Notes under the pieces: model-generated
The model's input: only the letters and a program-made list of their open reading frames with translations
The model's database searches: none
What the model was told of the DNA's origin: nothing
Part shown: positions 6,827 through 31,387 of the stretch, piece after piece
Position numbering within the stretch: the stretch's first letter is position 1
Layout: each line of letters opens with the position of its first letter
Program-made: the position numbers and the translations under genes
Assembly: GCF_020805785.1 (NCBI RefSeq)
Contig: NZ_JAJGZV010000006.1
Coordinates: 62,001 to 126,000, forward strand
Origin: Flavobacterium chungbukense
Lineage (GTDB): Bacteria; Bacteroidota; Bacteroidia; Flavobacteriales; Flavobacteriaceae
Length of the DNA stretch: 64,000 bases
Reading direction: 5' to 3'

Positions 6827-6840
6827 TTAGAAAATGTGCC

Positions 6841-7044
6841 AATTTGATAATTAGATAATTCTTTTGAAACGCGCTAATTATTTAATTTTTGAAGTACAAA
6901 TTCTAAATTTTGAAAACGCAATAATTTGTTAATTGATTTATCGGATTGATTATTTTACATTTATTTTGCCTTTCAAATCAATTAAAATTAAATCTCAGCT
7001 AGTTTGTCAATTATCTCATTTTCAAATTATCTAATTATCTAATT
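6841..7044. repeat. Long-range inverted repeat flanking the lptB leader
   Basis: AATTTGATAATTAGATAATT at 6841-6860 and AATTATCTAATTATCTAATT at 7025-7044 are reverse complements at 19 of 20 positions, separated by about 164 bases. They bracket the 225-base gap before lptB; the right copy ends seven bases before its ATG. No gene is visible between the arms. Whether this folds as a leader hairpin or is a dispersed element inserted twice cannot be told from one locus. Confidence 0.7.
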
Positions 7045-7051
7045 AAAAAAA

Positions 7052-7792
7052 ATGAAGCTAAGAGCCGATAATTTAATCAAAACCTATAAAGGACGTAGTG
7101 TTGTAAAAGGAATTTCTGTTGAAGTAAATCAAGGAGAAATTGTGGGACTTTTGGGACCTAATGGAGCTGGAAAAACAACGTCTTTTTATATGATTGTTGG
7201 ATTGGTAAAACCAAATCAAGGAAATATTTATTTGGATGATTTGAACATTACTGATTATCCGATGTACAAACGTGCACAGCAAGGAATTGGCTATTTGGCG
7301 CAAGAGGCTTCGGTCTTTAGAAAATTAAGTATTGAAGACAACATTTTAAGCGTTTTACAATTGACAAAACTTTCAAAAGAGGCACAAATTGCTAAAATGG
7401 AAAGTTTAATAGAAGAATTCAGTTTAGAACATATTCGCACCAACCGAGGCGATTTACTTTCTGGAGGTGAGCGTCGTCGTACAGAAATTGCACGCGCATT
7501 GGCAACCGATCCAAAATTTATTTTATTGGATGAGCCTTTCGCTGGAGTTGACCCGGTTGCGGTTGAGGATATTCAGAGAATTGTAGCGCAATTGAAAAAT
7601 AAAAATATCGGAATTCTAATTACCGATCACAACGTTCAGGAAACTTTAGCCATTACCGATAAAACATACTTAATGTTCGAAGGAGGAATTCTAAAAGCCG
7701 GTGTTCCAGAAGAATTAGTTGAAGATGAAATGGTTCGCCGTGTTTATCTTGGACAAAACTTCGAGTTGCGTAAAAAGAAACTTGAATTCTAG
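7052..7792 (+). CDS. lptB: LPS export ABC transporter ATP-binding protein LptB
   Basis: A 246-residue cytoplasmic ATPase that powers LptFG to move lipopolysaccharide from the inner membrane across the envelope. Walker A is GPNGAGKTT at about 34-42, the ABC signature is LSGGERRR, Walker B is FILLDEPFAGVDP, and the switch His lies in LITDHNVQETL. The ERRR and DEPFAGVDPVAV wording is characteristic of LptB rather than of amino-acid or other importers. The partner permeases are not in the window. It lies downstream of the Kdo isomerase, which fits an LPS theme, but the 225-base gap with inverted repeats suggests separate control. ATG start after a run of A. Confidence 0.93.
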   Translation: MKLRADNLIKTYKGRSVVKGISVEVNQGEIVGLLGPNGAGKTTSFYMIVGLVKPNQGNIYLDDLNITDYPMYKRAQQGIGYLAQEASVFRKLSIEDNILSVLQLTKLSKEAQIAKMESLIEEFSLEHIRTNRGDLLSGGERRRTEIARALATDPKFILLDEPFAGVDPVAVEDIQRIVAQLKNKNIGILITDHNVQETLAITDKTYLMFEGGILKAGVPEELVEDEMVRRVYLGQNFELRKKKLEF

Positions 7793-7802
7793 AAAAAGTA
7801 TT

Positions 7803-7889
7803 CAGTCGCAGTTTTCAGTCGCAGTGAGCACTGAAAACTGTAACTGAAATTCTTTACAAAAAAATACTGAAAACCGAGACTGAGACTGC
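7803..7889. repeat. Inverted repeats between lptB and GH25 gene (CAGTnnCAGTTTTCAGT family)
   Basis: CAGTCGCAGTTTTCAGT at 7803-7819 pairs with ACTGAAAACTGTAACTG at 7830-7846, 15 of 17 positions, across a 10-base loop. A further related copy, ACTGAAAACCGAGACTGAG, starts at 7866 and reaches almost to the stop of the convergent GH25 gene. The position between convergent genes is consistent with a two-way terminator, but the multiple copies suggest a dispersed repeat family. Confidence 0.75.
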
Positions 7890-7893
7890 AAAT

Positions 7894-8748
7894 TTACTCA
7901 ACCGTAATAAACTGCAACTGTTCAATATCTCCGTTATAAATATTAACATCAACACGATGTTTGATTCCTGGCAAAGAAGCCTTTTCTGTAAACTGCCAGA
8001 AAAGCCAGTCATCTTCGATTTTTTCTCTATAGAAATTGTAGTTCGCAATCCAAAATAAATAATCTCCAAATTCTTCTTTTAAGAAATCAGAATAATATCT
8101 TTCTCCAGAATAAATTATTGGGCGAACCTGATAATGTTTTTCCACTTTAATTAGCCAACGCTTTAAACCTTTCTTTAAACTATCTAAAGACTGATTTTTG
8201 GGCAATTTTTCTATATCTAAAACTGGCGGAAGATCTCCTTTTTGCAATTTTACTGTTTTAATAAACAAATCGGCCTGCTCTATAGAATTTTCGTTTGGAC
8301 GGTAATAATGGTAAGCACCGCGCATAATTTTGTTTTCCTTTGCTCCTTCCCAGTTTCTTTTGAATTGCCTGTCAACTCGGTCATTTCCTGCTGTTGCACG
8401 TATAAACACAAATTGTACTGGATATTTTTCATCTAAAATTTCCACTTCTTCCCAATCTACTTTTCCTTGAAATTCGGATACATCAATGCCAATCACTTTT
8501 CCTTTATGATTTTCAAGAACACGAATATTACGCACATCCGCAAGATGTTTATCTACCTCATCTTCATCCAGAACTTTTTCCGATTTAAAACCTAAATAGT
8601 AAGCAAGCCCTTTACGATAATGGTAAATGATCCCGATAAATAAAAGTGAAAAGAATAGTAGCAAAACCCCTCTAAAAATCCTGCTTAAAAGAGACCTTCC
8701 AGCTGGTTTTCTAGAATATGTTTTACGGTAAGTTGTTTTTCTTGCCAT
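7894..8748 (-). CDS. Membrane-anchored glycoside hydrolase family 25 (lysozyme-like)
   Basis: A 284-residue protein predicted to cut peptidoglycan between MurNAc and GlcNAc. A basic N-terminus (RKTTYRKTYSRKPAGR) precedes a single membrane segment at about 28-43, leaving the catalytic domain in the periplasm. The GH25 domain spans about 83-280 with GIDVSEFQG (Asp89) and LPPVLDIE (Asp178, Glu180), the acidic residues expected at the active site, plus GAYHYYRP and FWQFTE near the end. The gene starts nine bases after the end of pssA, and the two are probably co-transcribed. Cell-wall remodelling in growth is the likely role; a phage origin is not supported because no phage genes are near. Confidence 0.9.
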   Translation of the reverse strand: MARKTTYRKTYSRKPAGRSLLSRIFRGVLLLFFSLLFIGIIYHYRKGLAYYLGFKSEKVLDEDEVDKHLADVRNIRVLENHKGKVIGIDVSEFQGKVDWEEVEILDEKYPVQFVFIRATAGNDRVDRQFKRNWEGAKENKIMRGAYHYYRPNENSIEQADLFIKTVKLQKGDLPPVLDIEKLPKNQSLDSLKKGLKRWLIKVEKHYQVRPIIYSGERYYSDFLKEEFGDYLFWIANYNFYREKIEDDWLFWQFTEKASLPGIKHRVDVNIYNGDIEQLQFITVE

Positions 8749-8757
8749 TAAACAGAA

Positions 8758-9468
8758 TTACTTTTTCAAAGAGAGATTATTGATAATTGAAAGCAATACG
8801 TAAAAAACGATAATAAGCGGAATTGCGATATAATGAAGAAAAACAACCATTAAAATCGAAACGATTAAAAACACTATTTGAAGTGCATTTTCTTTAAAAC
8901 TAAATTTCTTAATTTTTAAAGAAAACAATGGAATTTCAGCATTCAAAATATAAGCACTGCACAATGTTATGATTAACAAAACCCATTGGTTAGTTAAGAT
9001 TTCTAGAATCATTAAAGAATCTGAAAAAGAAATAACCAGAGGAAGACTTAAAATAAACAATGCGTTTGCCGGTGTTGGTAAGCCAATAAAAGAATCTGTT
9101 TGGCGGGTATCGATATTAAAATTTGCCAAACGATAGCAAGAACCCAAAGTAATAATAAATCCTAAAAATGGAATTGCAGGATGTGTGCCCAATTCATGTG
9201 CGCTGTTATTAAACATACTGTACATGACGTATCCAGGAGTTACACCGCTTGTCACCATATCTGCCAATGAATCTAATTGCAATCCTAACGGACTCGAAAC
9301 TTTGAATAATCTTGCAAAAAAGCCATCAAAAAAATCAAAAAAGATTCCTAAACAAACCATATAAAATGCCATTAAATAATTATTCTGAGAAACATAAACA
9401 ATTGCGACACAACCACAGAAAAGATTAATTAATGTGATTAGGTTTGGAATGTGCTTTTTAATATTCAT
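8758..9468 (-). CDS. pssA: CDP-diacylglycerol--serine O-phosphatidyltransferase
   Basis: A 236-residue polytopic membrane enzyme that joins serine to CDP-diacylglycerol to give phosphatidylserine, the precursor of phosphatidylethanolamine. The CDP-alcohol phosphotransferase signature is complete: DG at 48-49, AR at 52-53, Gly62, Asp66 and Asp70 within FFDGFFARLFKVSSPLG and the following LQLDSLAD. At least six hydrophobic helices follow. Length and the early motif position match the Bacteroidota and Gram-positive type II PssA rather than the E. coli phospholipase D-like enzyme. A promoter with an exact -7 box lies about 30 bases upstream. The GH25 gene follows nine bases downstream. Confidence 0.93.
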   Translation of the reverse strand: MNIKKHIPNLITLINLFCGCVAIVYVSQNNYLMAFYMVCLGIFFDFFDGFFARLFKVSSPLGLQLDSLADMVTSGVTPGYVMYSMFNNSAHELGTHPAIPFLGFIITLGSCYRLANFNIDTRQTDSFIGLPTPANALFILSLPLVISFSDSLMILEILTNQWVLLIITLCSAYILNAEIPLFSLKIKKFSFKENALQIVFLIVSILMVVFLHYIAIPLIIVFYVLLSIINNLSLKK

Positions 9469-9496
9469 AGTTTGAAATTTTGATAATGGCAGAGAA

Positions 9497-9524
9497 CAAA
9501 TTTAGCATAATAACTGGATGCAAA
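9497..9524 (-). promoter_or_regulatory. Candidate promoter of pssA
   Basis: On the minus strand, TTTG (9521-9524) is followed after 16 bases by TAAATTTG (9497-9504), an exact TAnnTTTG. Spacing is one base under the usual 17-23. The predicted start of transcription lies about 20 bases before the pssA ATG at 9468. This is the best two-part promoter match I found in the window. Confidence 0.5.
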
Positions 9525-9609
9525 ACGAGTTTTTTCAAGAGTTTTTTAATTCTGGCTTCTACTTTTAGAATATTTAACCTAAGGAACTTATTAGATGAGT
9601 AAAATATTA

Positions 9610-9617
9610 TATTTTTG
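9610..9617 (+). promoter_or_regulatory. Candidate -7 promoter box for the PorV/PorQ-family gene
   Basis: TATTTTTG matches TAnnTTTG exactly and lies 42 bases before the TTG start at 9659, in the divergent gap with pssA. No clear -33 TTG is found upstream. Confidence 0.4.
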
Positions 9618-9658
9618 ATAAAAATTAAAACAGGTCTAGATCTGTAAAAACATATCCG

Positions 9659-10726
9659 TTGAAGAAATTTTTAGTATTTATATTATTTTGGAGTTTTACT
9701 TTTCAGTATGGACAAACCGTTCGAAAATATTCGAATGAATTTATGAATATTGGAGTTGATGCTGCGGCACTTGGAATGTCGAGCGCTGTTACGGCTTCTA
9801 CAAATGATGTAAATGCAGTTTACTGGAATCCAGCAGGTTTAACCAATCTTGAAGATCACCAAATTGCTTTAATGCACGCTAGTTATTTTGCCAATATTGC
9901 ACAATACGATTATATCGGCTACGCAAGTCCGATTGATGATCGAAGTGCATGGGGAATTTCGATGATTCGTTTTGGAGTAGACGACATTATGGACACTACT
10001 CAATTGATCGATAGTCAAGGAAATATAGACTACAATAGAATTCGTCTCTTTTCAACCGCCGATTATGGTTTTACTTTTTCGTATGCCAGAAAACTCCCCG
10101 TTGATGGATTTCAATATGGTGTCAATGCAAAAGTAATTCGAAGAGTAATTGGAAAATTTGCGAATTCGTGGGGTTTTGGGTTTGACATCGGACTTCAGTT
10201 TGAAAGGAATAACTGGAAATTTGGGTTAATGCTTCGCGACATTACAACTACTTATAATGTCTGGAATATTGATGAAGAAGAATACGCTAAAATTGCCAAT
10301 GCAATTCCTGGAGAAAATAACGAATTACCAGAAAGTACCGAAATTACGTTGCCAAAAGCACAATTAGGAGTTTCAAAGCGATTTGATTTTCATAACGATT
10401 ATAGCCTTGTTACTTCTGCAAACTTAAATATGAGATTTGAACAAACTAATGATATTATCTCATCAAAAGTAGTAAGTATAGACCCAGCTCTAGGGTTTGA
10501 GTTTGGTTATACTGATTTAGTATTTGTGAGAGCCGGAGCAGGAAATTTTCAGAATGTAACGCAATTGGATAATACTGAGAAATTAAATTTTCAACCCAAT
10601 ATCGGATTAGGTTTTAGATATAAAGGCATTCAAGTTGATTATGCTTTGACCGATTTAGGAAACCAAAGTACAGCCTTGTATTCTAATATTTTTTCATTAA
10701 AAGTGGATTTAGGAATCTTTAGATAA
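9659..10726 (+). CDS. PorV/PorQ-family outer-membrane protein
   Basis: A 355-residue protein with an N-terminal signal peptide (MKKFLVFILFWSFTFQYGQ) and a beta-barrel-like body. The segment FMNIGVDAAALGMSSAVTA then NAVYWNPAGL near 27-61 is the hallmark of PorV/PorQ proteins, FadL-type barrels tied to the type IX secretion system and surface attachment of its cargo. The chain ends in alternating hydrophobic residues with a terminal Arg after Phe, as in barrels. I cannot tell whether it is PorV, PorQ or a paralogue. The start is a TTG at 9659, giving an intact signal peptide; no ATG lies nearby in frame. DUF4105 gene follows 38 bases downstream. Confidence 0.8.
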   Translation: MKKFLVFILFWSFTFQYGQTVRKYSNEFMNIGVDAAALGMSSAVTASTNDVNAVYWNPAGLTNLEDHQIALMHASYFANIAQYDYIGYASPIDDRSAWGISMIRFGVDDIMDTTQLIDSQGNIDYNRIRLFSTADYGFTFSYARKLPVDGFQYGVNAKVIRRVIGKFANSWGFGFDIGLQFERNNWKFGLMLRDITTTYNVWNIDEEEYAKIANAIPGENNELPESTEITLPKAQLGVSKRFDFHNDYSLVTSANLNMRFEQTNDIISSKVVSIDPALGFEFGYTDLVFVRAGAGNFQNVTQLDNTEKLNFQPNIGLGFRYKGIQVDYALTDLGNQSTALYSNIFSLKVDLGIFR

Positions 10727-10764
10727 TTTTCTAAATCATAAAATTCAAAAAAAAAAATTAAATC

Positions 10765-11901
10765 ATGAAAACTGTCATTTTCAAAAAAACACTTTTTATT
10801 TTATTCTTCTTGCTGAGTTTCATTGGTTTTAGCCAAAGCTTGCCTTTATCTAAAGATGCTAAAATAAGTGTTCTTACTTGTGGACTTGGCAACGAAACTT
10901 ATTCTTACTTTGGACATACTGGTCTTAGAGTTTCTGATCCGGGCAACAATTTTGATGTTGTCTACAATTACGGAACTTTCGATTTCAGAACACCAAATTT
11001 CGTTTTAAAATTTGCAAAAGGAGATTTACAGTATTTCGCTACAGTTCACTCCTACGCAGATTTTTACAATGAATACACATATGAGAAAAGAAGCATTTTT
11101 GAACAAGATTTATTGATTCCGCAAGATTTAAAACAAAAACTTTTTGACGAATTAAATGCTGTTTTAGCTTCTGAAGAACGCTATTATACTTATAAATTTA
11201 TTGATAAAAATTGTACTTCAATGGTTGTTGATGTTATCAATAAATCTTTAGGACAGACTGTAATTACTAAAAAAGAAGATACCGATAAAACATATCGTTC
11301 TATTTTGTTTCCTTATTTTGATGGTCATTTTTACGATCAACTGGGAACTAGTATCATTTTCGGAACAAAAGTGGATCAAATGGGAACGAGAATATTTCTT
11401 CCATTTGAATTGAAAAACAGCTTAGACAAAACTACTTTTCAAAATAAGCTATTAGCTGGCAAAAGCAAAACCTTACTAGAATTTACCAAAGAAACTCCAA
11501 CATCTTGGTGGAATAACATTTACACCTATTTGTTCATCTTGCTATTTGTTATTTTCGCAAAAAGCAAAGGAGTCGACAAAATCTTTTTCTTGATATTGTC
11601 TTTAATTGGAATATTTTTCGTCGTTATGGGATTTTATTCTTTTCACCAAGAACTGGCAATGAATTATAATGTTTTACTTTTCAGTCCACTTTTATTGGTT
11701 TTAATTCTGTTTTCTGTTCTCAAAAACAAATTATGGACTTATCGATTTTCATTAATCAATTTTGTTCTTTTAGTGATTTACTTTTTGTTTTTAATTAACA
11801 AAGCGCACTTCTTTATTACGTTGCCCTTAATTATTACAAGCGGTGTAGCTTTAGTTAGAACAGCAATTAGAAATAAAAAGCCAATTCCTATTATAATTTA
11901 A
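10765..11901 (+). CDS. DUF4105 (Lnb N-terminal-like) membrane protein
   Basis: A 378-residue protein with a signal peptide (about 1-24, ending GFSQS), a periplasmic domain at about 25-235 with the DUF4105 features VLTCGLGNETYSYFGHTGLRV and FDVVYNYGTFDF, and a conserved KFIDKNCTSM block containing a Cys. Four to five membrane helices fill about 248-370. DUF4105 resembles NlpC/P60-like cysteine enzymes: the His of YFGHTGLRV and the Cys of DKNCTS could form an active pair, an inference. Probably co-transcribed with the PorV/PorQ-family gene. Its stop codon abuts, with no base between, the stop of the convergent sugar transferase gene. Confidence 0.82.
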   Translation: MKTVIFKKTLFILFFLLSFIGFSQSLPLSKDAKISVLTCGLGNETYSYFGHTGLRVSDPGNNFDVVYNYGTFDFRTPNFVLKFAKGDLQYFATVHSYADFYNEYTYEKRSIFEQDLLIPQDLKQKLFDELNAVLASEERYYTYKFIDKNCTSMVVDVINKSLGQTVITKKEDTDKTYRSILFPYFDGHFYDQLGTSIIFGTKVDQMGTRIFLPFELKNSLDKTTFQNKLLAGKSKTLLEFTKETPTSWWNNIYTYLFILLFVIFAKSKGVDKIFFLILSLIGIFFVVMGFYSFHQELAMNYNVLLFSPLLLVLILFSVLKNKLWTYRFSLINFVLLVIYFLFLINKAHFFITLPLIITSGVALVRTAIRNKKPIPIII

Positions 11902-13296
11902 TTATTGGCCGCGATAAAACAAAACCGTTGTAATCGTTTTTAGAGTAATGCTCAAATCTAGAAATACGCTTCTATGTTTGATGTAATACAAATCGTATTG
12001 AAGTTTTATCAAGCTTTCTTCTATTGATTCTCCGTAAGAATAATTTACCTGAGCCCAACCTGTCAGTCCCGGTTTAATAACATGGCGTGTTTCGTAAAGA
12101 GGCATTACACTTGCTATTTCTTCAACAAAAAATGGTCTTTCGGGTCTTGGTCCGATTACTGCCATGTCTCCTTTTAAAACATTGATAAACTGAGGAAGTT
12201 CATCAATTCTTGACTTCCGCATAAATTTACCAAAAGGAGTAACTCTTTTATCGTTATGCAATGCAAAAACAGCTCCATCAGATTCTGAATTGGCTGTCAT
12301 GGTTCTAAATTTATAAATCTCGAAAACAACACCATTTTTGCCTATTCGCTCTTGGGTATAAAAGAGGCTACCTTTATTTGCAAAATAATTAGCAATTAAA
12401 ATTATTGGAATAAAAATCAGGCAAATCATCAATCCGAACAGAGAAAAGAAAAGCTCCATTACACGAATCAATAACAAATACAATCTGTTGTTGTTACTTC
12501 TGCTGAATGGGAAAAAACGATAAAAATCTCTTCCTATATATTGCACCGGAATTCGCTGTGTTTTACTCTCGTACACTTGCGTGTACTCACGAATTATATT
12601 TCCGTTTTCTAACAAATGAAGCAATTGCTGATATAAGTCGGTTGTAATTCCATCTGTTTTTTGTGATGCAATAACAATTTCTGAGACATTATGTGTAGTT
12701 ACAAAAAGCTCTAAATCTTCTTTTTTAATTTCTTTTACATAATGAAAATCTACATTTTCATCTGTCAAAGAATCGGAATTTACAAAACCAATAATTTTAT
12801 AATGTGGGTCAACATTTTCAAGTCCCAAAACTAATTCTTCAACTTCTCTTTGATCACAAATTAAAACTACATTTTGAACAAAACGATAAGAGGCAAGAAA
12901 ATAAACATAAAAAAATCGCCACAACAGCAAAGAACTCAAAATGGCGAAATAGAAGATAATAATAATTAATCGCTGTTTAGGAAGTTCTGGCGATAAAATT
13001 GGAGTCAGTAAATATGCCGTTATCGAAGTGACAGAAGTTAAAACAACATTACGTAAAATCTGAAATTGATTACTTGCAGTCTGCAGATTGTATATTTCAA
13101 AAATATTTCCGAAAACATAAAGATAAGCAATCAGTAAAAAAGACTTTAAATATTTACCGTCTTCTAAAACATAATAATGATAGTCAAATAAAAGGCTAAG
13201 AGCATACAGAGCAGTAAAAACAAATATCGCATCAAAAAGATAAAGAAGAACTTTCCTTTCCGAAATTTCGAAATGCATTTTGCTTAGTGTAGGCAT
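11902..13296 (-). CDS. Polyprenyl-phosphate sugar-1-phosphate transferase (WbaP/WcaJ type)
   Basis: An initiating phosphoglycosyltransferase that moves a sugar-1-phosphate from a nucleotide sugar to undecaprenyl phosphate. I choose the ATG at 13296 (MPTLSKMHFEIS, 464 aa) over a TTG two codons earlier; an ATG at 13278 is also possible. Four to five N-terminal helices (about 15-140) precede a cytoplasmic CoA-binding-like region, another helix near 275-300, and the catalytic bacterial sugar transferase domain with FYTQERIGKNG, YKFRTM, RIDELPQF and VIGPRPERP. It is the last gene of the glycan locus and has its own -7 box. The sugar is unknown; glucose or galactose is usual for the family. Confidence 0.92.
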   Translation of the reverse strand: MPTLSKMHFEISERKVLLYLFDAIFVFTALYALSLLFDYHYYVLEDGKYLKSFLLIAYLYVFGNIFEIYNLQTASNQFQILRNVVLTSVTSITAYLLTPILSPELPKQRLIIIIFYFAILSSLLLWRFFYVYFLASYRFVQNVVLICDQREVEELVLGLENVDPHYKIIGFVNSDSLTDENVDFHYVKEIKKEDLELFVTTHNVSEIVIASQKTDGITTDLYQQLLHLLENGNIIREYTQVYESKTQRIPVQYIGRDFYRFFPFSRSNNNRLYLLLIRVMELFFSLFGLMICLIFIPIILIANYFANKGSLFYTQERIGKNGVVFEIYKFRTMTANSESDGAVFALHNDKRVTPFGKFMRKSRIDELPQFINVLKGDMAVIGPRPERPFFVEEIASVMPLYETRHVIKPGLTGWAQVNYSYGESIEESLIKLQYDLYYIKHRSVFLDLSITLKTITTVLFYRGQ

Positions 13297-13332
13297 ATAC
13301 AATATTATTTTTTAGAATCAATTTGGTTGAGA

Positions 13333-13340
13333 CAAATGTA
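13333..13340 (-). promoter_or_regulatory. Candidate -7 promoter box for the WbaP-type gene
   Basis: TACATTTG on the minus strand is an exact -7 match, placed about 37 bases before the ATG at 13296, in the short gap after the O-antigen ligase-like gene. A TTG exists upstream but at 11 bases, too close for a standard -33. Confidence 0.4.
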
Positions 13341-13355
13341 TTGTAAAAAAACAAT

Positions 13356-14705
13356 TTAGCTATCAGCATTTTCTATTTTTTCAGGAATCTTAATCTTAAC
13401 AGAAAGCAAACATAGCGCATATAAAAAAGCTGGTGCCGCCGTTCGCATTGCCGCATGATTTATGGTTAATAACCAAAAAACAAAACACGAAAGAAAATAT
13501 AAATGCTGGCGATTATTGAGATAAAGAATGAAAGGAGTTAGAAATAATATTAACAAACAAAAAATTCCAAATAGTCCGTGTTCAGAAAGCATTCTTGTAA
13601 TTTCATTATGCGACGCAGCTTCTTCTTTTGTTAATTCTAATCGCTTGTATTTACTTAATCCAACACCAACACCTAACACCGGATCATTAAGGAATAGCTT
13701 TATTTCTTCATCCATAATTTCTTCCCTTCCACCTAAACGATCCTTTTTTACTCGTCCTGCAGCATCCTTATTAGCGTATCTCTTCTGAATAAGTCCAGAA
13801 GTCTGTAAAGACGAATAGGTCCAGATACCTGCCCCAATTAAAGCTGTAACCACAAAAACTAGAATAAATTTGCCTCTACTTTTAGCATTTGAGCTTACAT
13901 ATAACAAAAATAACAAACAAACTATCATGGCTACGGCCGTAAAAACTCCTCCTCTTGAAAATGTTACTATTGCTCTGTAGGTGATAAAAATCAACAAAAA
14001 TGCGTTGATAAGTATATCTCTTTTTGATTTTGAAAACAATATCATCTGAGTAAAAAAGACAAACATTCCTAGTCCCAAAATAGTTGAAACCTGGTTTGGC
14101 CCAAAACCTCCTGAAGTTTCAAAATTTGACTGCGTTCCTGTTACCACATCCTTCACGCTCGGATTATATAAAAACAAATATACTGTTGTGGTAATGACTG
14201 GCATACCCATTGCAATTAGAATATTCTGAAAATCAGAAAATAATATTTTCCTTTTAAAGGTATATATTGAAGCTATTGCTAAACAAACGGGTCCCGACAA
14301 ATTAAAAAACAATGCTTTTTTAATATCTATGGAAGAATCTGCCACTGCATTAGTAATTAAAATTCCTGGAATTAATAGAATTAGAAAAAAACAATAAATT
14401 AATGCATTTGCAGAAAAATTGCTATAAAACATTCCCACTAACATAAAGAAAACCACAGTGAATTTTACATATTCATTATTAAAATTCCCACCTGTCATTC
14501 TCAAAAAAACCTCGACTCCAACTAAATAAGCTGCCACCAATAAAACTTCGTTATTTCTATTTTTCGTTTGGTAGACAATACTGAAACCAACAATAAGAAT
14601 TAATAAGCTATATATTTTTGATAAAAAAGGAACAATAAAAACAGCCAATGCTATTAAAGCATGAATAATGATTATGGCTAAGTAGCTGAATTTTGTGCTT
14701 TTCAT
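13356..14705 (-). CDS. O-antigen ligase/polymerase-like membrane protein (Wzy/WaaL superfamily)
   Basis: A 449-residue protein with about eleven to twelve membrane helices. The Wzy_C/WaaL region is seen as TFSRGGVFTAVAM near 248-260 and a large periplasmic loop containing PVLGVGVGLSKYK and ASHNEITRMLSEHGLFGIF near 365-390; the Arg and His of these motifs are those implicated in ligases. Such proteins either polymerise lipid-linked repeat units or transfer the finished glycan to lipid A-core or protein, and sequence alone does not separate these. Neighbour of the WbaP-type transferase downstream and a GT4 enzyme 13 bases upstream. Given the ABC exporter in the locus, ligase function is attractive. 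Confidence 0.85.
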   Translation of the reverse strand: MKSTKFSYLAIIIIHALIALAVFIVPFLSKIYSLLILIVGFSIVYQTKNRNNEVLLVAAYLVGVEVFLRMTGGNFNNEYVKFTVVFFMLVGMFYSNFSANALIYCFFLILLIPGILITNAVADSSIDIKKALFFNLSGPVCLAIASIYTFKRKILFSDFQNILIAMGMPVITTTVYLFLYNPSVKDVVTGTQSNFETSGGFGPNQVSTILGLGMFVFFTQMILFSKSKRDILINAFLLIFITYRAIVTFSRGGVFTAVAMIVCLLFLLYVSSNAKSRGKFILVFVVTALIGAGIWTYSSLQTSGLIQKRYANKDAAGRVKKDRLGGREEIMDEEIKLFLNDPVLGVGVGLSKYKRLELTKEEAASHNEITRMLSEHGLFGIFCLLILFLTPFILYLNNRQHLYFLSCFVFWLLTINHAAMRTAAPAFLYALCLLSVKIKIPEKIENADS

Positions 14706-24118: not shown

Positions 24119-25000
24119 TTACTTATTAAAAAAATCTTTTATAATTTTTGCTGTAAAAATTCTTGCTCCAGCATCTGTCATGTGTCCACAAGAAGAAAAA
24201 TATTTATCTTCGATTACTACGTTTTCATAATTATAAATTTCTGGATAGGCTTTTTTTACTTTATCAAAGTAATTCATTCCCACAACATTTTCGCACATTG
24301 GCGTCATAACAGCAATAAAATTGATATTGTTTTTTTTACAGATATTTTTAATTTCCTCGTAATATTTATTGTGAGGCAACGGATTTAAATTGACAATATT
24401 ATTTTTCATATTGCCATTTTTGTGCTTTTCTAATGGGTAATAACCTAAATTGTCCTGTGAATTTGTTTTCTTATGAATAGCACTAAAAAAAACTTCTCTT
24501 ATACCTATTTTTCCATCGTATTTTATATATCTATAAAATGGAATATAATACAGCTCGTTAAAATCACTTTCATTCTTAAAATGATCTTTTATAATTGTTG
24601 AATTATGAATAAAAGGAATAAACAGAGACCCTATTCCTTCTGCCATTTTTTCGTTTGATAAATTCAAGTCTGCCTCTAAAATTACATTTTTGATTTCATA
24701 TTTTCTTTCTATCATTAATTTTAGCATTAATGAAGCCTCAAACAGATGTCCGCCGCTCATTCCGTAATTAAATGTTTTTAGTCCTTTCTCTTCAAACATT
24801 TGAGAAACAAAATGATTATTGGCTCTAGAAGATCCTAAAATAACGACATCATATTTTTTTGCTTCAGAATTTACTACCGCTTCGATTTTTCCACGATTTT
24901 TTGATTGCATAAAAATGTAAGTATACAATCCGTCTAATACAACCGCAACCAAAACTGTTACTAGAAAAATTTTGAATATGTAGAATAAAAACTTTTTCAT
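24119..25000 (-). CDS. SGNH-hydrolase-like partner of MBOAT, catalytic Asp apparently missing
   Basis: A 293-residue protein with one N-terminal membrane helix (about 5-29) and a predicted periplasmic domain. VVILGSSRANNHF with Ser at 57 or 58 matches the SGNH block I nucleophile, and a C-terminal H273 occurs in SCGHMTDAGARIF. In SGNH enzymes the His is preceded three residues earlier by Asp (DxxH); here that position is Ser270. The upstream paralogue at 26437 keeps D295-T-F-H298. It follows an MBOAT gene with a one-base overlap, like DltD/AlgJ-type partners. Possible roles are final acyl transfer to the glycan or a non-catalytic support protein. Confidence 0.72.
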   Translation of the reverse strand: MKKFLFYIFKIFLVTVLVAVVLDGLYTYIFMQSKNRGKIEAVVNSEAKKYDVVILGSSRANNHFVSQMFEEKGLKTFNYGMSGGHLFEASLMLKLMIERKYEIKNVILEADLNLSNEKMAEGIGSLFIPFIHNSTIIKDHFKNESDFNELYYIPFYRYIKYDGKIGIREVFFSAIHKKTNSQDNLGYYPLEKHKNGNMKNNIVNLNPLPHNKYYEEIKNICKKNNINFIAVMTPMCENVVGMNYFDKVKKAYPEIYNYENVVIEDKYFSSCGHMTDAGARIFTAKIIKDFFNK

Positions 25001-26433
25001 TAAAATTGGAAATAAATAAATTCTTTGTAATCTGAATAAGTTCCGAAAGCAATTATTGCCATAATAGCTAATGCCATTTTAAGCATACTTCTTTTCCCCG
25101 AAATTGGTTCTACCTTAGTTCTATTGTTCCATTCCACTAAAACAAATAAGCCAATCATCAATATTAATTCATAATTATATCTTTCGTTTTCTAAGTATTG
25201 AAACCCAAAGTTTCTATCTGTTATTATTCGTTTCAAATATAAAATAGCATCTGTAATTGTTCTGGCTCTAAAAAATACCCAAGCAATACAAGTTAATACA
25301 AAAGTCGTTAGAATACTAAATAATACTTTTATAGAATCTAAATTCCACTTTAAAACAACAGAATCTATATTATTTCTATTGCTGTTGGACAATAAAAGCG
25401 GAAGAAAATAAACGGCGTTAATAAAACCCCAGACAATGTATGTCCAATTGGCCCCATGCCAAAATCCGCTGACAATAAAGATTATAAAAGTATTTCTGAT
25501 TTTCATCCAAAGTCCGCCTTTACTTCCTCCTAGCGGAATATACAAATAATCTCGAAACCAAGAAGAAAGCGAGATATGCCATCGACGCCAAAATTCTGCA
25601 ATATCTCTTGAAAAATAAGGATAATTGAAGTTTCTCAATAAATCTAAGCCAAACAATTTAGAGACACCAAGCGCAATATCTGAATATCCAGAAAAGTCTC
25701 CATAAATCTGGAACGCAAAATAAATAGCTCCCAAAATCAACGAAAAGGAATTCATTGAAGGATAATGATCAAAGATAGCATTTGCGTAAACCGCACAAGT
25801 GTCTGCAATAACCACCTTTTTTACTAAACCCCAAACAATTTGATAAACACCTTCTTTTGCTTTTTCTAAATTAAATTCGCGTTTTACTTTTAATTCCGGC
25901 AATAAATGAGTAGCTCTTTCAATTGGTCCTGCAACTAAAAGCGGAAAATAACTTACGAAGAGAGAGTAATCTACAAAATTGTATTCGGCTTTTATTCTTT
26001 TATAATAAATATCAATTACGTATGATAATCCATGAAAAGTGTAAAATGAAATTCCGACCGGCAAAATAACATTGAGCAAAAACGGACTTACCTTAAACCC
26101 AAAAGAAGTAAACATTTCTGCAAATGAACTGGCAAAGAAATTATAATATTTAAAGATTCCTAGAAAACCTAAATTGACCAGAATACTAAGCCAAAACCAA
26201 AATTTTCGCTTTTTATCCGAATCACTTTTTTCAATCTGTATACCGGTGAAATAATCTAAAAATGTGGAAAAAACCAATAAAAAAAGAAATCTCCAATCCC
26301 AGCAAGAATAGAAATAGTAACTCGCAACAATTAACAAAGCATTTTGTGTGCTTTTATTTTTATTGAAAACAAACCAATACAGAAAAAAAACGATTGGCAG
26401 AAAAATGGCAAAAGCCAGAGAGTTGAAAAACAT
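25000..26433 (-). CDS. MBOAT-family O-acyltransferase (copy 2)
   Basis: A 477-residue polytopic protein of the membrane-bound O-acyltransferase family (AlgI/DltB/PatA type), which passes acyl groups, often acetyl, across the inner membrane for glycan O-acylation. About ten to twelve helices are visible. The signature AEFWRRWHISLSSWFRDY places His286, and SGFWHGANWTYIVWG places the presumed catalytic His326. The first 179 residues differ from the MBOAT at 27414 at only four positions by my count, whereas the last 140 have diverged strongly. It overlaps the downstream SGNH-like gene by one base and lies three bases after the other SGNH-like gene. Confidence 0.95.
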   Translation of the reverse strand: MFFNSLAFAIFLPIVFFLYWFVFNKNKSTQNALLIVASYYFYSCWDWRFLFLLVFSTFLDYFTGIQIEKSDSDKKRKFWFWLSILVNLGFLGIFKYYNFFASSFAEMFTSFGFKVSPFLLNVILPVGISFYTFHGLSYVIDIYYKRIKAEYNFVDYSLFVSYFPLLVAGPIERATHLLPELKVKREFNLEKAKEGVYQIVWGLVKKVVIADTCAVYANAIFDHYPSMNSFSLILGAIYFAFQIYGDFSGYSDIALGVSKLFGLDLLRNFNYPYFSRDIAEFWRRWHISLSSWFRDYLYIPLGGSKGGLWMKIRNTFIIFIVSGFWHGANWTYIVWGFINAVYFLPLLLSNSNRNNIDSVVLKWNLDSIKVLFSILTTFVLTCIAWVFFRARTITDAILYLKRIITDRNFGFQYLENERYNYELILMIGLFVLVEWNNRTKVEPISGKRSMLKMALAIMAIIAFGTYSDYKEFIYFQF

Positions 26434-26436
26434 GAA

Positions 26437-27399
26437 TTAATTTAATTGTTCATTAATTTTTGCTGAAACTTTTTTAGAAAACAAATTTGCACCAGTTTCA
26501 TTTAAGTGAAATGTATCATAATAATATTGATCATGATTTGAAATATCGTCGTAAGCCATATCGATGAAAATAAAATTTTTATACTTTTTTTGCATTAAAC
26601 ACAGCTCCTCAACTATTGTTTCTCTTTTCAGATCATAGCTTTTATTTAATCTCATTTTGTTTTCAGGCATCCAGACAAATATAAGTTTTGAATCTTTATC
26701 TAACCTTGAAAAGTAAAAATAAATCATTTTGTGCAAAAGGTCTATTTCTCTTTTGTTTAGTGATTTGGTTTTCGTTTCTGGTATTTTTTTTAAGTTGTGG
26801 TAATCAATTCTAAAAGGTCGGTCTTGCGGACAATAACCTTTTAATGTTGTTGCATTTTTCTTTGTTGAATTTGAAAAATTAGCCACTATTCCTTCTTCAA
26901 GCATTTTAAAACTCTGATTGTATTTCAATAATGGAATAATCTTAAATAAATTAAATTTATTTTCGTATTTCCCCACTAAAGAATTAATATCTTCATTGTA
27001 AACTAAAGGATAAAATTGTGATACTTCTGGAAGTTCTTTATTTTCTCCAAAATGCGCTATATCAATATTTTGAATAACAATCTTAGGTTTTTTATTTCTT
27101 TTAAGATAAGTATCAAATTTGTATTGCTGTAATTTATAGCATCCTGCATTAAAACTGATATTAAAACAGTCTCCTTTCAAATTTTCTTCTATAATTTGAG
27201 AATTGTAACCAACAAATCCACGAGAAGAGCCATTAATAATAATGTCACTATTTATTCTCCCATTGACTATATTATCCCAATCATTATACTGCGTATTTTT
27301 AAGATTTCGGAAACCATAATCTGCCAGATATTGAATTCCGAAGGAAACAATATAAGTCATGGCAACAATTCCTATAATATATTTGAGAAAAAATTTCAT
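26437..27399 (-). CDS. SGNH-hydrolase-like partner of MBOAT (copy 1)
   Basis: A 320-residue protein with an N-terminal membrane helix (about 5-24) and a periplasmic domain. IIINGSSRGFVGYNS at about 53-67 carries the block I Ser, and YYYDTFHLNETGANLF near 292-307 carries the Asp295/His298 pair, so the catalytic triad looks complete. A RLNKS-containing strand and the IFIDMAYDD block precede it. The layout matches acyl-transfer partners of MBOAT proteins such as DltD and AlgJ, but overall similarity to these is low, so the call rests on motif order and on the neighbouring MBOAT genes at 14 and three bases. The acyl acceptor is not identifiable. Confidence 0.75.
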   Translation of the reverse strand: MKFFLKYIIGIVAMTYIVSFGIQYLADYGFRNLKNTQYNDWDNIVNGRINSDIIINGSSRGFVGYNSQIIEENLKGDCFNISFNAGCYKLQQYKFDTYLKRNKKPKIVIQNIDIAHFGENKELPEVSQFYPLVYNEDINSLVGKYENKFNLFKIIPLLKYNQSFKMLEEGIVANFSNSTKKNATTLKGYCPQDRPFRIDYHNLKKIPETKTKSLNKREIDLLHKMIYFYFSRLDKDSKLIFVWMPENKMRLNKSYDLKRETIVEELCLMQKKYKNFIFIDMAYDDISNHDQYYYDTFHLNETGANLFSKKVSAKINEQLN

Positions 27400-27413
27400 G
27401 TTAATGGTACTAT

Positions 27414-28841
27414 TTAGAACTGAAAATAAATGAATTTACTTTGAATATCAAATTGTCCAAATAACAAAATAAATATTAGTGTTGTGATGGTCTTAATGCC
27501 TGAATATCTATCAAACAGCGGACATTCTTTTTTTCTGTTATTCCACTCAAGTAAAATTAAATAAGGTAGAATAATTATAATGATATAACTTATCTGTTCT
27601 TTTAAACCATCTAAATCAAATGAAAAGAACGTAATTCTTTTAATATATTCAAATGCCATATGTATATTCTCAGATCTAAAAAAAATCCAAGCAACACAGG
27701 TAATACCGAAAGTAAATAGAATATTGCAAATCATTTTTAAGGAAGAAAAATTAAATGAAATAGCTTTTTCTTCTATATTATTTCGGTTTGTTTTTATTAA
27801 AAGTAGCGGTAAAAAATAAAATGCATTTATTGCTCCCCAAGCTATATAAGTCCAATTGGCTCCATGCCAAAATCCACTCAATAGAAAAATAATGAAAACA
27901 TTTCTAACTTGAATTGTTTTAGAGCCTTTGCTTCCACCTAACGGTATGTAAACATAATCTCGAAACCAAGAAGATAGTGAAATATGCCAACGGCGCCAAA
28001 ATTCAGCGATGTCTCTTGAAAAGTAGGGATAATTGAAGTTTTTTAATAAATCAATACCGAATAATTTAGATACTCCTAAAGCTATATCTGAATATCCTGA
28101 AAAGTCGCCATAAATTTGAAAAGCAAAATATACAGTCCCCATAATAAGAGAAACCGAATCCATTGATGTGTAATGATCGAAGATATTATTAGCATAAACA
28201 GCACAGTTATCTGCTATAACTACTTTTTTAAATAGTCCCCAAATAATCTGTAGAAAACCTTCTTTTGCTTTCTCTAAATTAAACTCACGTTTTATTTTTA
28301 CTTGTGGCAATAAATGCGTTGCTCTTTCAATTGGTCCAGCAACTAATAAAGGAAAGTAACTAACAAACAAAGAATAATCTATAAAATTATATTCTGCTTT
28401 TATTCTTTTATAATAAATATCAATTACATACGATAAACCATGAAAAGTGTAGAATGAAATTCCGACCGGCAAAATAACATTGAGCAAAAACGGACTTACT
28501 TTAAACCCGAAAGAATTGAACATTTCTGCAAATGAACTTGCAAAGAAATTATAATATTTAAAGATTCCTAGAAAACCTAAATTGACCAAAATACTAAGCC
28601 AAAACCAAAATTTTCGTTTTTTATCAGAGTCACTTTTTTCAATTTGTATTCCGGTGAAATAATCTAAAAATGTGGAAAAAACCAACAGGAATAAAAACCT
28701 CCAATCCCAGCAAGAATAGAAATAATAACTTGCAACGATTAATAAAGCGTTTTGGGTACTTTTGCTTTTATTGAAAACAAACCAATACAGAAAAAAAACG
28801 ATTGGCAAAAAAATGGCAAAAGCTGTAGAATTAAAAAACAT
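27414..28841 (-). CDS. MBOAT-family O-acyltransferase (copy 1)
   Basis: A 475-residue membrane O-acyltransferase. RDIAEFWRRWHISLSSWFRD and LSGFWHGANWTYIAWG supply His286 and His326, both at the same positions as in the second copy. N-terminal halves of the two copies are nearly identical in protein and close in DNA, including synonymous sites, while the C-terminal 140 residues differ greatly, for example KRITFFSFDLDGL here. This points to tandem duplication followed by divergence, or gene conversion of the 5' halves. It forms a module with the SGNH-like gene 14 bases downstream. The gap of 22 bases upstream separates it from the GT-B-like gene. Confidence 0.95.
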   Translation of the reverse strand: MFFNSTAFAIFLPIVFFLYWFVFNKSKSTQNALLIVASYYFYSCWDWRFLFLLVFSTFLDYFTGIQIEKSDSDKKRKFWFWLSILVNLGFLGIFKYYNFFASSFAEMFNSFGFKVSPFLLNVILPVGISFYTFHGLSYVIDIYYKRIKAEYNFIDYSLFVSYFPLLVAGPIERATHLLPQVKIKREFNLEKAKEGFLQIIWGLFKKVVIADNCAVYANNIFDHYTSMDSVSLIMGTVYFAFQIYGDFSGYSDIALGVSKLFGIDLLKNFNYPYFSRDIAEFWRRWHISLSSWFRDYVYIPLGGSKGSKTIQVRNVFIIFLLSGFWHGANWTYIAWGAINAFYFLPLLLIKTNRNNIEEKAISFNFSSLKMICNILFTFGITCVAWIFFRSENIHMAFEYIKRITFFSFDLDGLKEQISYIIIIILPYLILLEWNNRKKECPLFDRYSGIKTITTLIFILLFGQFDIQSKFIYFQF

Positions 28842-28863: not shown

Positions 28864-30261
28864 TTAGTGTAAAATTTTGATTATTGCTTCCCATGTTCTT
28901 TCTGAAGAGTCTTGAGCTGGATGCTGATTTATAATTTTGAACCATTCTCGTGCATTTTCGATTGTTTTATCAGATTTTTTTAATACCAATTTTATTTTAT
29001 CTGCAATCTCATCTGAAGAATTCAGCCATATGACGGCATTTTTATCGGGCATTGAACGAAAATGAATATAATTATAGATTTTTGAAACGGACCAATCTGC
29101 TTGAATTTTATTTGCAACATCGTAGTTTAAATAAGCGCAAGGTTTATTAAAACAAGCATAATCAAAAACCATTGACGAACCAAGATTTACAACCATTTCA
29201 GAATGAAAAATAGTGTTGGATAGTAATCTCACATCTTCTTTAGTAGGCAAAATAGTATCCCAATCTTCACCAATCTTTTTCCATATTGGATCTACAGCTG
29301 TAATCAGATCTTTATTTTTTTCCAAAATAGCATCATAACGACCAGAGAAATCTACTGGACAACGTCTGAATATAATTCCTAATGCGTTATGATTTTCTTC
29401 ATTCAATTTTCTAATAGCATCTGCTATATCCGACAAATATTGTGGATCATCTGGACAGGTAACAAAATCATCACCAGAATAACAGATGTATTTTTTATTG
29501 TGATCCAAATTGTATTGATTGAAAAACTGTATTTTATCACTAATACTTTCTTGATCAAAATGACTTTCAAATTGTGGCGTGCCTACAACAAAAACCTGTT
29601 TTTCATCTATATAAGAATAATATTTTAGAAGCTCAGATTTCATATGTTCGCTCCAGACAAAATAATAATCTGTTTCAATGACCATCGTTGCTTTTGGCAA
29701 ATTGTCCCAAGAAAAAATGAAAGTTCCTGTTGGTATACCAACCTCTTTAGCTGCTAAAATTGGCGCAATTGCTAATAATGGTCTTTGATTTGTACAAAAA
29801 ACAAAATCGGGCTTATTATTTTGAAGAGTCTCGATACATTGCGAAAAAAAGTCTGTTTTTTTCTCACTGCTTATTATTTGCTTTCTAACTTTTTTTAATC
29901 CTTTTTCTGAATTATAAATCGTAATTAAAAATCTGGTCAAATAGCTTTTTACCGCCGTTTTTAATTTTTTATAGGAAAAAGGAAATCTATAATTATCGTA
30001 AGCAGACTCATTTTCTGCTTTAATATTCAGGTTGAGTTCTATATGTTTTCGGGCATTTTTATAACTCTCCGTTAAAGGATATGATTTGGCGTTTTTAATT
30101 TTAATTTCATTAAAACCTAAACTAGTCAAATCAAATGGAGTATTATTCCAATAGGTAATATCAAATTTCTTTTCTATTCCTATTTTATAAAAATTAGAAA
30201 ATGCAAAATTTCGAAGCCCTACTCCGTCTGGCAGTAAAATAAATATTTTTTTATTAGGCAT
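28864..30261 (-). CDS. GT-B-like glycosyltransferase, candidate nonulosonate transferase
   Basis: A 465-residue protein from the ATG at 30261 (MPNKKIFILLPDGVGLRNFA). The frame is open further up to 30390, but that part lies inside neuC and gives a non-conserved leader, so I reject it. FIFSWDNLPKATMVIETDYY and FVWSEHMKSELLKYY near 210-240, and VVNLGSSMVFDYACFNKPCAYLNYD near 380-405, resemble GT-B or CDP-glycerol transferase-like proteins that decode activated donors. It overlaps neuC by eight bases, so it is made together with the nonulosonic acid genes; transfer of that sugar is a guess from position. No clear family was recognised. Confidence 0.6.
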   Translation of the reverse strand: MPNKKIFILLPDGVGLRNFAFSNFYKIGIEKKFDITYWNNTPFDLTSLGFNEIKIKNAKSYPLTESYKNARKHIELNLNIKAENESAYDNYRFPFSYKKLKTAVKSYLTRFLITIYNSEKGLKKVRKQIISSEKKTDFFSQCIETLQNNKPDFVFCTNQRPLLAIAPILAAKEVGIPTGTFIFSWDNLPKATMVIETDYYFVWSEHMKSELLKYYSYIDEKQVFVVGTPQFESHFDQESISDKIQFFNQYNLDHNKKYICYSGDDFVTCPDDPQYLSDIADAIRKLNEENHNALGIIFRRCPVDFSGRYDAILEKNKDLITAVDPIWKKIGEDWDTILPTKEDVRLLSNTIFHSEMVVNLGSSMVFDYACFNKPCAYLNYDVANKIQADWSVSKIYNYIHFRSMPDKNAVIWLNSSDEIADKIKLVLKKSDKTIENAREWFKIINQHPAQDSSERTWEAIIKILH

Positions 30262-31387
30262 TACTGTCTCTAAATTGTTTTTGGTGATTGAGCTGCCAAA
30301 TATCCGACTTCTGTAGACAATTAAGAAATAATTCTGCACTATTTCCTTGCCCAAAATCGTCATCTGATTTTTGTACTTTATGAGACTCAATCATGGAAAG
30401 CGATTCTGTAATTTCTTTTTCAGAATAATCTACATTTATTATATCGGCATGAACTGCTCTGTTTTGCTGTCTGGTACCAATATTAATAATTGGAATTCCA
30501 TAATAGGGAGCTTCCCTAATACCAGCGCTACTATTTCCTATAATGAATTGGCTATTTTTTAAAAGTGTTAGAAAATACTCAAATCTAAGAGAAGGGAAAA
30601 TTCTAAATCGTTCGTTTAATTTTAATTTTTCATAACTATCTAAAACAAAACGGCTTCCCAAATCATTGTTGGGGTAAATAACAATATAATTATGATTATG
30701 ATTATCTTTTAGTAAAGCATTGACAAAATTATCTGCATACTGTCTCATGTTCTGAATCTCGGTAGTTACAGGATGAAACATAACTATAGAAAAGCTTTCA
30801 AAAGGAATTTTATAATATTCTTTAACCGTCTTCAAATCTGGAAGCTGATCAGAAAACATGATGTCTATATCTGGCGAACCAATCGTAAACACAGATTCTT
30901 TTACCTCTCCCATTTGAATTAGTCTTTTCGCAGCTTCTTCATTTGAAACAAAATGAATATGGCTCAATTTGCTTACGCTATGTCTTATCAATTCGTCTAC
31001 GGTGCCAGATACTTCTCCTCCTTCTATATGAGTAACCAAAATATTATTAAGCGACCCAACAATAGCACCAGCAAGAGTTTCAACGCGATCTCCGTGCACT
31101 ACAATCATATCCGGTTTTACGGTGTTGCAATAAGCAGAAAAACCTTCAATCGTTTTGGCTAGCGTCAAATCCATTGTGGTTTCGTGGGTATGATTCACAA
31201 AAGTGTGAATATTTTTAAAATTACATCGCTCGATTTCTATTAAGGTATAGCCATATTCTTCTTGCAAATGCATGCCTGTAACAAAAACAAAAACCTCAAA
31301 TTCTTTTTGTTTTTCAAGAATTGAGATTAATGATTTTATTTTTCCGAAATCGGCTCTTGTGCCTGTTAAAAAAAGGACTTTCTTCAT
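30254..31387 (-). CDS. neuC: UDP-N-acetyl sugar 2-epimerase (hydrolysing), NeuC/LegG type
   Basis: A 377-residue enzyme that inverts C2 and removes UDP from UDP-GlcNAc, or from UDP-diNAcBac in the LegG variant, giving the aldose used by NeuB. LFLTGTRADFGKIKSLI near 5-21, IVVHGDRVETLAG near 97-109, HIEGGEVSGTVDELIRHS near 120-137 and IGNSSAGIREAPYYGIP near 285-301 are the family blocks, with the catalytic His and Glu residues in place. Which substrate is used cannot be read; a PglF/PglE-like set in the same locus makes UDP-diNAcBac possible. It lies seven bases after neuB and overlaps the GT-B-like gene. Confidence 0.92.
   Translation of the reverse strand: MKKVLFLTGTRADFGKIKSLISILEKQKEFEVFVFVTGMHLQEEYGYTLIEIERCNFKNIHTFVNHTHETTMDLTLAKTIEGFSAYCNTVKPDMIVVHGDRVETLAGAIVGSLNNILVTHIEGGEVSGTVDELIRHSVSKLSHIHFVSNEEAAKRLIQMGEVKESVFTIGSPDIDIMFSDQLPDLKTVKEYYKIPFESFSIVMFHPVTTEIQNMRQYADNFVNALLKDNHNHNYIVIYPNNDLGSRFVLDSYEKLKLNERFRIFPSLRFEYFLTLLKNSQFIIGNSSAGIREAPYYGIPIINIGTRQQNRAVHADIINVDYSEKEITESLSMIESHKVQKSDDDFGQGNSAELFLNCLQKSDIWQLNHQKQFRDSNA

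Follow-up and report, generated by a model that had tools for sequence, protein, structure and literature searches.

How can two neighbouring genes encode nearly the same protein over their first 179 residues and strongly different ones at their other end? The question is raised by two MBOAT genes, each followed by an SGNH-like gene, in a 64,000-nucleotide stretch of the Flavobacterium chungbukense genome (contig NZ_JAJGZV010000006.1, positions 62,001 to 126,000), hereafter the window. The head-to-tail arrangement of two such modules, reported in a preliminary description of this DNA, was borne out: the list of open reading frames (ORFs) places four genes on the minus strand, transcribed in the order MBOAT-B (28841-27414, 475 residues), SGNH-B (27399-26437, 320 residues), MBOAT-A (26433-25000, 477 residues) and SGNH-A (25000-24119, 293 residues). 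Sequence comparison across the genus makes it very probable that this is an old tandem MBOAT-SGNH pair whose 5' part, about 180 codons, has been homogenised repeatedly within genomes by homologous recombination, with the 3' parts and the SGNH genes staying distinct.

Divergence of the two copies in the window

The first 179 residues of MBOAT-A and MBOAT-B differ at four positions of the window alignment (6, 26, 109 and 154), exactly the number counted earlier. The DNA had been described as close to identical at synonymous sites, and this does not hold: the first 537 nt carry 52 differences (90.3% identity), with a proportion of synonymous differences (pS) of 0.41 and a synonymous distance (dS) of 0.59 (NG86). 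The two arms, codons 1-179 of MBOAT-B (28305..28841, minus strand) and their MBOAT-A counterpart (25897..26433, minus strand), form a direct repeat with an offset of 2408; the example pairing given earlier had used 2400. The identity step from 5' to 3' is present as described, not as one cliff but as three levels of DNA identity, namely 90.3% over codons 1-179, 79.6% over codons 180-300 and 56.2% from codon 301 to the end, where protein identity is 48.6%. The step exceeds chance and exceeds protein constraint. SGNH-A and SGNH-B share 30% identity over 162 residues (BLASTP E 2e-8, two-sequence comparison). Homogenisation in the window is not very recent (pS 0.41), and its youngest patch is about 160 nt long.

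Orthologous loci and the age of the pair

A search with MBOAT-A covered 299 genus genomes, and 268 of them gave a match at E 1e-60 or better among the matches listed, paralogues included; the genome searches for MBOAT-A and SGNH-B scored at most five candidates per genome. The comparison set comprised 61 loci, the window and those of 60 other genomes of the genus, and is non-random, combining the window and 40 high-ranking A matches with four genomes chosen because they have SGNH-B and another 16 A matches. An A-type MBOAT is present in 60 of the 61, the exception being L165 (genome G333), which has a divergent MBOAT. Twelve loci (the window, L115, L116, L117, L118, L120, L126, L133, L134, L163, L164 and L166) carry a B-type MBOAT with SGNH-B immediately upstream of A, a proportion that overstates the frequency of B because four genomes were picked for SGNH-B; among the first 41 loci, selected on A alone, B is present in nine. 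A third MBOAT type, X, stands with another SGNH gene upstream of A in a single locus (L179, genome G243, 7533-8981), sharing with its neighbouring A 93.7% of the DNA in the 5' part and 54.6% from codon 301 on. Of 398 genus genomes, 13, including the window's own, have an SGNH-B orthologue (37% or more) among the matches listed; 12 of these belong to the tandem loci, and G333 is the remaining one. Of the two modules, A is conserved and B is patchy in its distribution.

A recent duplication had been put forward earlier; in the form of a tandem copy made in the window lineage, whose 3' half then diverged fast or was replaced, it would agree with there being only four amino-acid differences across residues 1-179. 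It is contradicted by B orthologues elsewhere, with orthologous pairs in the same gene order in 12 genomes. The B 3' ends are related to one another across species, the 5' pS of the window pair is 0.41, and the 3' tree of 73 sequences (60 A, 13 B/X; the L165 MBOAT excluded) separates A from B/X by a long branch with support of 100/100; we consider recent duplication very unlikely. As a case against its own reading, the preliminary description had named old orthologues that lack an identity step; the related loci hold old orthologues, but with the step, and the reading is not refuted.

Homogenisation within genomes

Own-genome and other-genome A-B identity was compared in 13 tandem pairs (12 with B, one with X), using 10000 shuffled pairings. 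Over codons 1-179 the own-genome mean is 91.6% vs 81.5% between genomes, a difference reached by none of the 10000 shuffles. Over codons 180-300 the values are 80.3% and 79.0% (2/10000 shuffles), and from codon 301 on no own-genome effect was found in the 13 pairs (58.9% vs 58.8%, 3570/10000 shuffles). For the first 179 codons, the own A is the best of the 13 A copies for B or X in 11 of 13 pairs and the best of all rows in nine.

Synonymous sites behave alike. The own-genome A-B pS of the 5' part spans 0.11-0.67, lying at 0.11-0.29 in seven pairs (L117, L118, L120, L133, L134, L164 and L179), and the own A-B distance is smaller than that to the nearest other A in 8/13, with the window tied at 0.41. 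Stronger purifying selection on the first 179 residues, with no recombination at all, could be proposed instead, and these residues are indeed better conserved across species, the A-A proportion of nonsynonymous differences (pN) being 0.060 there vs 0.114 in the 3' part. The 5' part is not intrinsically slow, since the A-A mean pS is about equal in the two parts (0.65 in 5', 0.63 in 3'). That synonymous sites track own-genome pairing contradicts selection as the sole cause, as do the shuffling result and a 5' tree in which B monophyly is 787 log units worse, leaving this account highly improbable. An assembly artefact, in the form of a collapsed or mis-joined repeat, deserves mention, near-identical repeats being prone to mis-assembly; the 13 pairs lie in separate genomes, including one-contig assemblies (G149, G243 and G345), and the A, B and X copies all have open reading frames, so that such an origin is extremely unlikely.

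Control MBOAT copies came from 54 genomes, mostly chosen for more than one MBOAT match, with matches at E 1e-40 or better. Nineteen other MBOAT copies in these genomes show 60-74% protein identity to window MBOAT-A over residues 1-179, and a second copy reaches 87% or more only in the tandem loci of G082 (L126) and G243 (L179). Over codons 1-300, the DNA of an MBOAT about 6 kb upstream of B in L089 is 59-78% identical to that of B and A (for A only up to codon 250). In other MBOAT arrays within the related loci, most pairs are unhomogenised. Recurrent homogenisation confined to one region is seen in the tandem pairs and is absent from the other MBOAT copies examined.

Two further observations concern recombination elsewhere in these families. 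Locus L087 carries three MBOAT genes in 7.4 kb (6001-13424), of which copies 1 and 3 are 81-89% identical over codons 1-360 and 69% thereafter; to judge from these values, it may be a second partly homogenised array. MBOAT-A of L124 matches that of L118 at 88-95% after codon 180 and 80-88% before it, and that of L128 matches the same copy at 88-93% only around codons 21-140; MBOAT-A therefore seems also to recombine between species.

Phylogeny and topology tests

In the 5' tree, from which the L165 MBOAT was likewise excluded, seven of the 13 pairs (L117, L126, L133, L134, L163, L164 and L179) have B or X as the sister of their own A, with starred support. A group of six rows (100/98) unites the A and B copies of the window, L115 and L166, with the three B copies as a clade within it. 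The approximately unbiased (AU) test rejects monophyly of the 12 B copies in the 5' part (787 log units worse, p 1.4e-128), and in the 3' part it rejects the pairing of A with its own B in all seven pairs tested of the 13 (p 0.0012 to 4e-10). The test does not reject B monophyly over codons 180-300 (p 0.37). For the 5' part, the A copies of L117, L118 and L120 as one clade are not rejected (p 0.151), nor are those of the window trio (p 0.457). In L133 and L134 the 5' and 3' places of A agree, and visual inspection of the trees there suggests transfer from A onto B.

Tracts, borders and patches

Runs identical between A and B reach 290 nt in L164 (from nt 250), 275 nt in L133 (from nt 247), 188 nt in L117 and 171 nt in L120. 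In the six pairs that gain more than 20 log units, a two-rate scan puts the border at codons 172, 179, 179, 184, 189 and 195. The 12 residues that distinguish A from B, by chosen thresholds, include none before codon 204, and nine of them lie at 361-468. In the AlphaFold2 model of MBOAT-A (predicted local distance difference test, pLDDT, 75.6), the border maps to about the loop that joins helices 174-181 and 189-222.

Younger events were sought by a patch scan of informative sites, with permutations over nt 1-900 and, for window MBOAT-B, also within nt 1-540. Compared with the B copy of L166, window MBOAT-B carries an A-type patch at gene nt 159-316 (1/10000 permutations over nt 1-900, 25/10000 over nt 1-540), the youngest in the gene, corresponding to 28526..28683 on the minus strand and, at equal gene positions in MBOAT-A, to 26118..26275 (minus strand). 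The B copies of L117 and L120 bear similar A-type patches (0/5000 each, nt 1-900), and the patches in the window, L117 and L120 postdate the split of related B copies. The B copy of L166 shows a patch against that of L115 (18/5000) and none against that of the window (741/5000).

Several results weigh against repeated homogenisation of the 5' part by conversion. A small own-genome effect persists in codons 180-300. By 5' pS the own A is not closer in 4/13 pairs, the window being tied, and the own A is not the nearest 5' sequence in 4/13 (L115, L116, L118 and L166). In the remaining seven pairs of the two-rate scan the border scatters over codons 48-196, and the B copies of L118 (838/5000) and L115 (4911/5000) are without a patch. 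In the AU tests of the 5' part, pairing of A with B is neither shown nor rejected for the window (p 0.161) and for L120 (p 0.46), and loss of the L117/L118/L120 B clade is borderline (p 0.046). Finally, the correlation between the MBOAT 3' part and the SGNH gene, described below for B, is not peculiar to that module: the 13 tandem A copies give 0.89 in the 3' part and 0.84 in the 5' part.

Considered together with these points, gene conversion limited to the 5' part, as suggested in the preliminary description, is supported and recurs in several species. In the sequence of events that we favour, an ancient duplication would have given rise to a conserved module A and a patchy module B; within-genome conversion would then have acted over the first ~180 codons, with A as donor to B in the handful of cases that reveal a direction, and the MBOAT 3' part would have stayed distinct together with its SGNH partner, the two varying together. 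The border is probably kept by selection for partner-specific 3' sequence and by falling identity.

Arrival of the upstream module

The 5' identity might instead arise when a module arrives, the 3' end of an incoming B or X with its SGNH gene recombining into a resident A through the 5' part and duplicating the local 5' sequence, with later conversion playing a minor role. Such an origin is compatible with repeated homogenisation. Several lines of evidence favour it. The B-3' and A-3' trees disagree in L133, whose B 3' part groups with the window trio and whose A 3' part does not. X in L179, a different MBOAT at the same site, bears the 5' sequence of its host's A. The presence of B requires at least nine changes on the rpoB tree of the 61 genomes. 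In 12 of 13 loci, the 150 nt upstream of B or X reach 68-87% identity to the upstreams of single-copy A genes (best of 47), with 59% in L163, and the same interval upstream of tandem A reaches 56-61% to single-copy A upstreams in all 13, near the level of shuffled B upstreams (55-58%, mean of the best of 15). Since these upstream 150 nt match, the 5' end of B stands where that of A does in single-copy genomes.

Against arrival as the main source, L117, L118 and L120 share one module, their B copies being 95-97% alike in the 3' part, yet those of L117 and L120 show separate later A-type patches, and the patch of window MBOAT-B relative to L166 points the same way. The rpoB tree is poorly resolved, and gains and losses of B are countable on it only as a minimum. 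The account is possible, though rather doubtful as a replacement for conversion; module arrival through the same 5' stretch perhaps also contributes.

Recombination between the ~540-bp arms, 2.4 kb apart, would delete exactly the B 3' end and SGNH-B, leaving one intact MBOAT. A bolder proposal, which we regard as speculative and unlikely, is that the ~540-bp 5' part serves as a homology socket through which B and X plug-ins (an MBOAT 3' end with its SGNH gene) enter, leave and swap by 5'-arm recombination with MBOAT-A left intact. The tandem pair would then be a reversible glycan-acylation switch, and homogenisation would keep the socket usable.

Enzyme identity and partner choice

Both MBOAT proteins score above the PF03062 gathering cut-off of 27 bits (MBOAT-A E 1.2e-29, 104.1 bits; MBOAT-B E 3e-32, 112.7 bits) and fail the DltB equivalog TIGR04091 (151 and 152.6 bits vs a cut-off of 375). 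The best Foldseek matches of the MBOAT-A model are DltB structures (6bug and 8jem). Residue H326 (A numbering) is invariant in 44 sequences and aligns with DltB His336 by hand count. A C-terminal FXYXXF motif occurs in 74/74 MBOATs, as FIYFQF in 73, MBOAT-A and MBOAT-B among them, and as FIYFAF in one.

The label 'SGNH-like' holds in part. Neither SGNH-A nor SGNH-B has a Pfam match, and the fold was recovered for SGNH-A, whose N-terminal helix (residues 2-32) precedes an SGNH-fold domain. Its AlphaFold2 model (pLDDT 95.1) has DltD as top Foldseek match (6o93, E 2.4e-5; also 3bma) and aligns with PatB (7tlv) at Z 13.1, with a root-mean-square deviation of 3.7 over 165 residues (VIA-align). A profile search of the SGNH alignment against the PDB was led by repeat-protein matches, which were taken as artefacts, followed by PAF acetylhydrolase (2.8e-4) and PatB1 (0.004). 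Residues G56, S58, N78 and H273 are invariant in 38 sequences, and the Ser, Asn and His, kept in both proteins, are those which we take to be catalytic. In this fold an Asp is presumably expected three residues before the catalytic His; it is present in SGNH-B (D-T-F-H), which also has a GSSR nucleophile motif, and absent from SGNH-A (S-C-G-H).

In the available text of PMC12148441, the Tyr of the FXYXXF motif of PatA carries acetyl to its SGNH partner PatB, and the membrane helix of PatB is modelled against PatA helices 1 and 17. By analogy, each MBOAT here would load an acyl group, probably acetyl, on the Tyr of its C-terminal FIYFQF and pass it through the membrane to the SGNH protein of its own module, which would place it on a glycan; A and B would probably acylate different positions of a surface glycan. 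Helix 1, the modelled PatB contact, lies in the homogenised part, and some partner contact is therefore probably shared by the A and B modules. The idea that one acyl-donor channel feeds two acceptors, advanced in the preliminary description, finds no support, because the equivalents of DltB catalytic His336 and of the DltC-binding helix, positioned as in the available text of PMC11035591, lie at ~299-326, outside the homogenised stretch.

Among 11 B copies, MBOAT identity correlates with SGNH-B identity most closely in the 3' part (Spearman 0.90), less in codons 180-300 (0.76) and least in the 5' part (0.68). The B copy of L126, with a frameshifted SGNH-B, is omitted, and in the set of all A copies L174, L175 and L177 are without an SGNH ORF at the MBOAT end. 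Shared ancestry alone could explain the 3'-SGNH correlation. On the sequence pattern, these are likely two cognate MBOAT-SGNH pairs whose choice of partner and acceptor is made mainly in the 3' part. To our knowledge, it is not settled which part of an MBOAT selects the SGNH partner or the acceptor; that choice should lie mainly in residues ~180-477, because the first ~180 are swapped between systems that keep different partners. The natural half-swaps found in several species offer ready-made borders for chimeras.

Genomic surroundings and variant loci

The last base of MBOAT-A is the first base of SGNH-A, a one-base overlap seen in 13/13 A copies of tandem-type loci. Beside the MBOAT pair, profile matches identify NeuC-, NeuB- and PseF-like genes and glycosyltransferases, and the cluster further holds a bacterial sugar transferase, an O-antigen-ligase-like protein and a pair of ABC transporter genes, the ATPase of which is most similar to polysaccharide exporters, with scores below their cut-offs. 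The MBOAT-SGNH modules sit in a surface-polysaccharide cluster. The neighbouring window ORF 28864-30390 overlaps the NeuC-like gene (30254-31387) by its first ~42 residues; its true start is probably near residue 43, because most homologues align only from about there.

SGNH-A is tandemly duplicated behind one MBOAT-A in L117, L118, L120, L124, L126, L129, L131, L136, L140, L167 and L171, the second copies being ~53-74% identical to window SGNH-A and that of L131 being in pieces; a single MBOAT-A may serve two SGNH partners there. L165 (5631-8915) has a lone divergent MBOAT followed by SGNH-B-like (36%) and SGNH-A-like (45%) genes, and by its gene content appears to be a rearranged or partly lost module. 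L126 (7037-7977) has a frameshifted SGNH-B beside an open MBOAT-B, a decaying module, and in L174-L177 other sequence of 0.3 to 2.6 kb separates SGNH-A from MBOAT-A. A plasmid search gave 13 records that partly match the MBOAT region, none of them reaching 80% query coverage (best 5 of 13 rows).

Comparison with known systems

Within the limited literature collection searched, no earlier report was found of MBOAT gene conversion, of Flavobacterium MBOAT pairs like these, or of duplication or conversion among polysaccharide O-acetylation genes. DltB and DltD resemble the present enzymes as the best Foldseek matches of MBOAT-A and SGNH-A, but DltB, as treated in the available text of PMC12148441, is without the C-terminal shuttle motif that MBOAT-A and MBOAT-B carry. 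PatA/PatB, in the same text, shares with the modules an MBOAT and SGNH pairing, a catalytic His, the C-terminal FXYXXF motif and an SGNH protein with an N-terminal membrane helix; it acts on peptidoglycan, whereas the two tandem modules here probably act on a surface polysaccharide.

Concerted evolution is documented in prokaryotes, as rare, in a survey which in its available part reports 26 genes (PMC6053082); the words 'acyltransferase' and 'Flavobacter' are absent from its main text. As in the cases treated in that part, own-genome paralogues are closer here than orthologues, synonymous sites included, but only part of the gene is homogenised. In nine mammals the TLR1/TLR6 genes, as far as the available text of PMC2077338 goes, underwent conversion within a restricted region whose borders are almost the same, and are likewise tandem paralogues with conversion limited to one region and the other region diverged. 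Those are mammalian receptors, whereas the genes described here encode bacterial membrane acyltransferases in a polysaccharide cluster, with one copy patchily distributed and a linked partner gene. The tandem MBOAT pair is a fresh and well-supported example of a known process, partial-gene conversion, and not a new kind of system, and it adds to TLR1/TLR6 a bacterial example, well sampled, in which conversion reaches only part of a gene.

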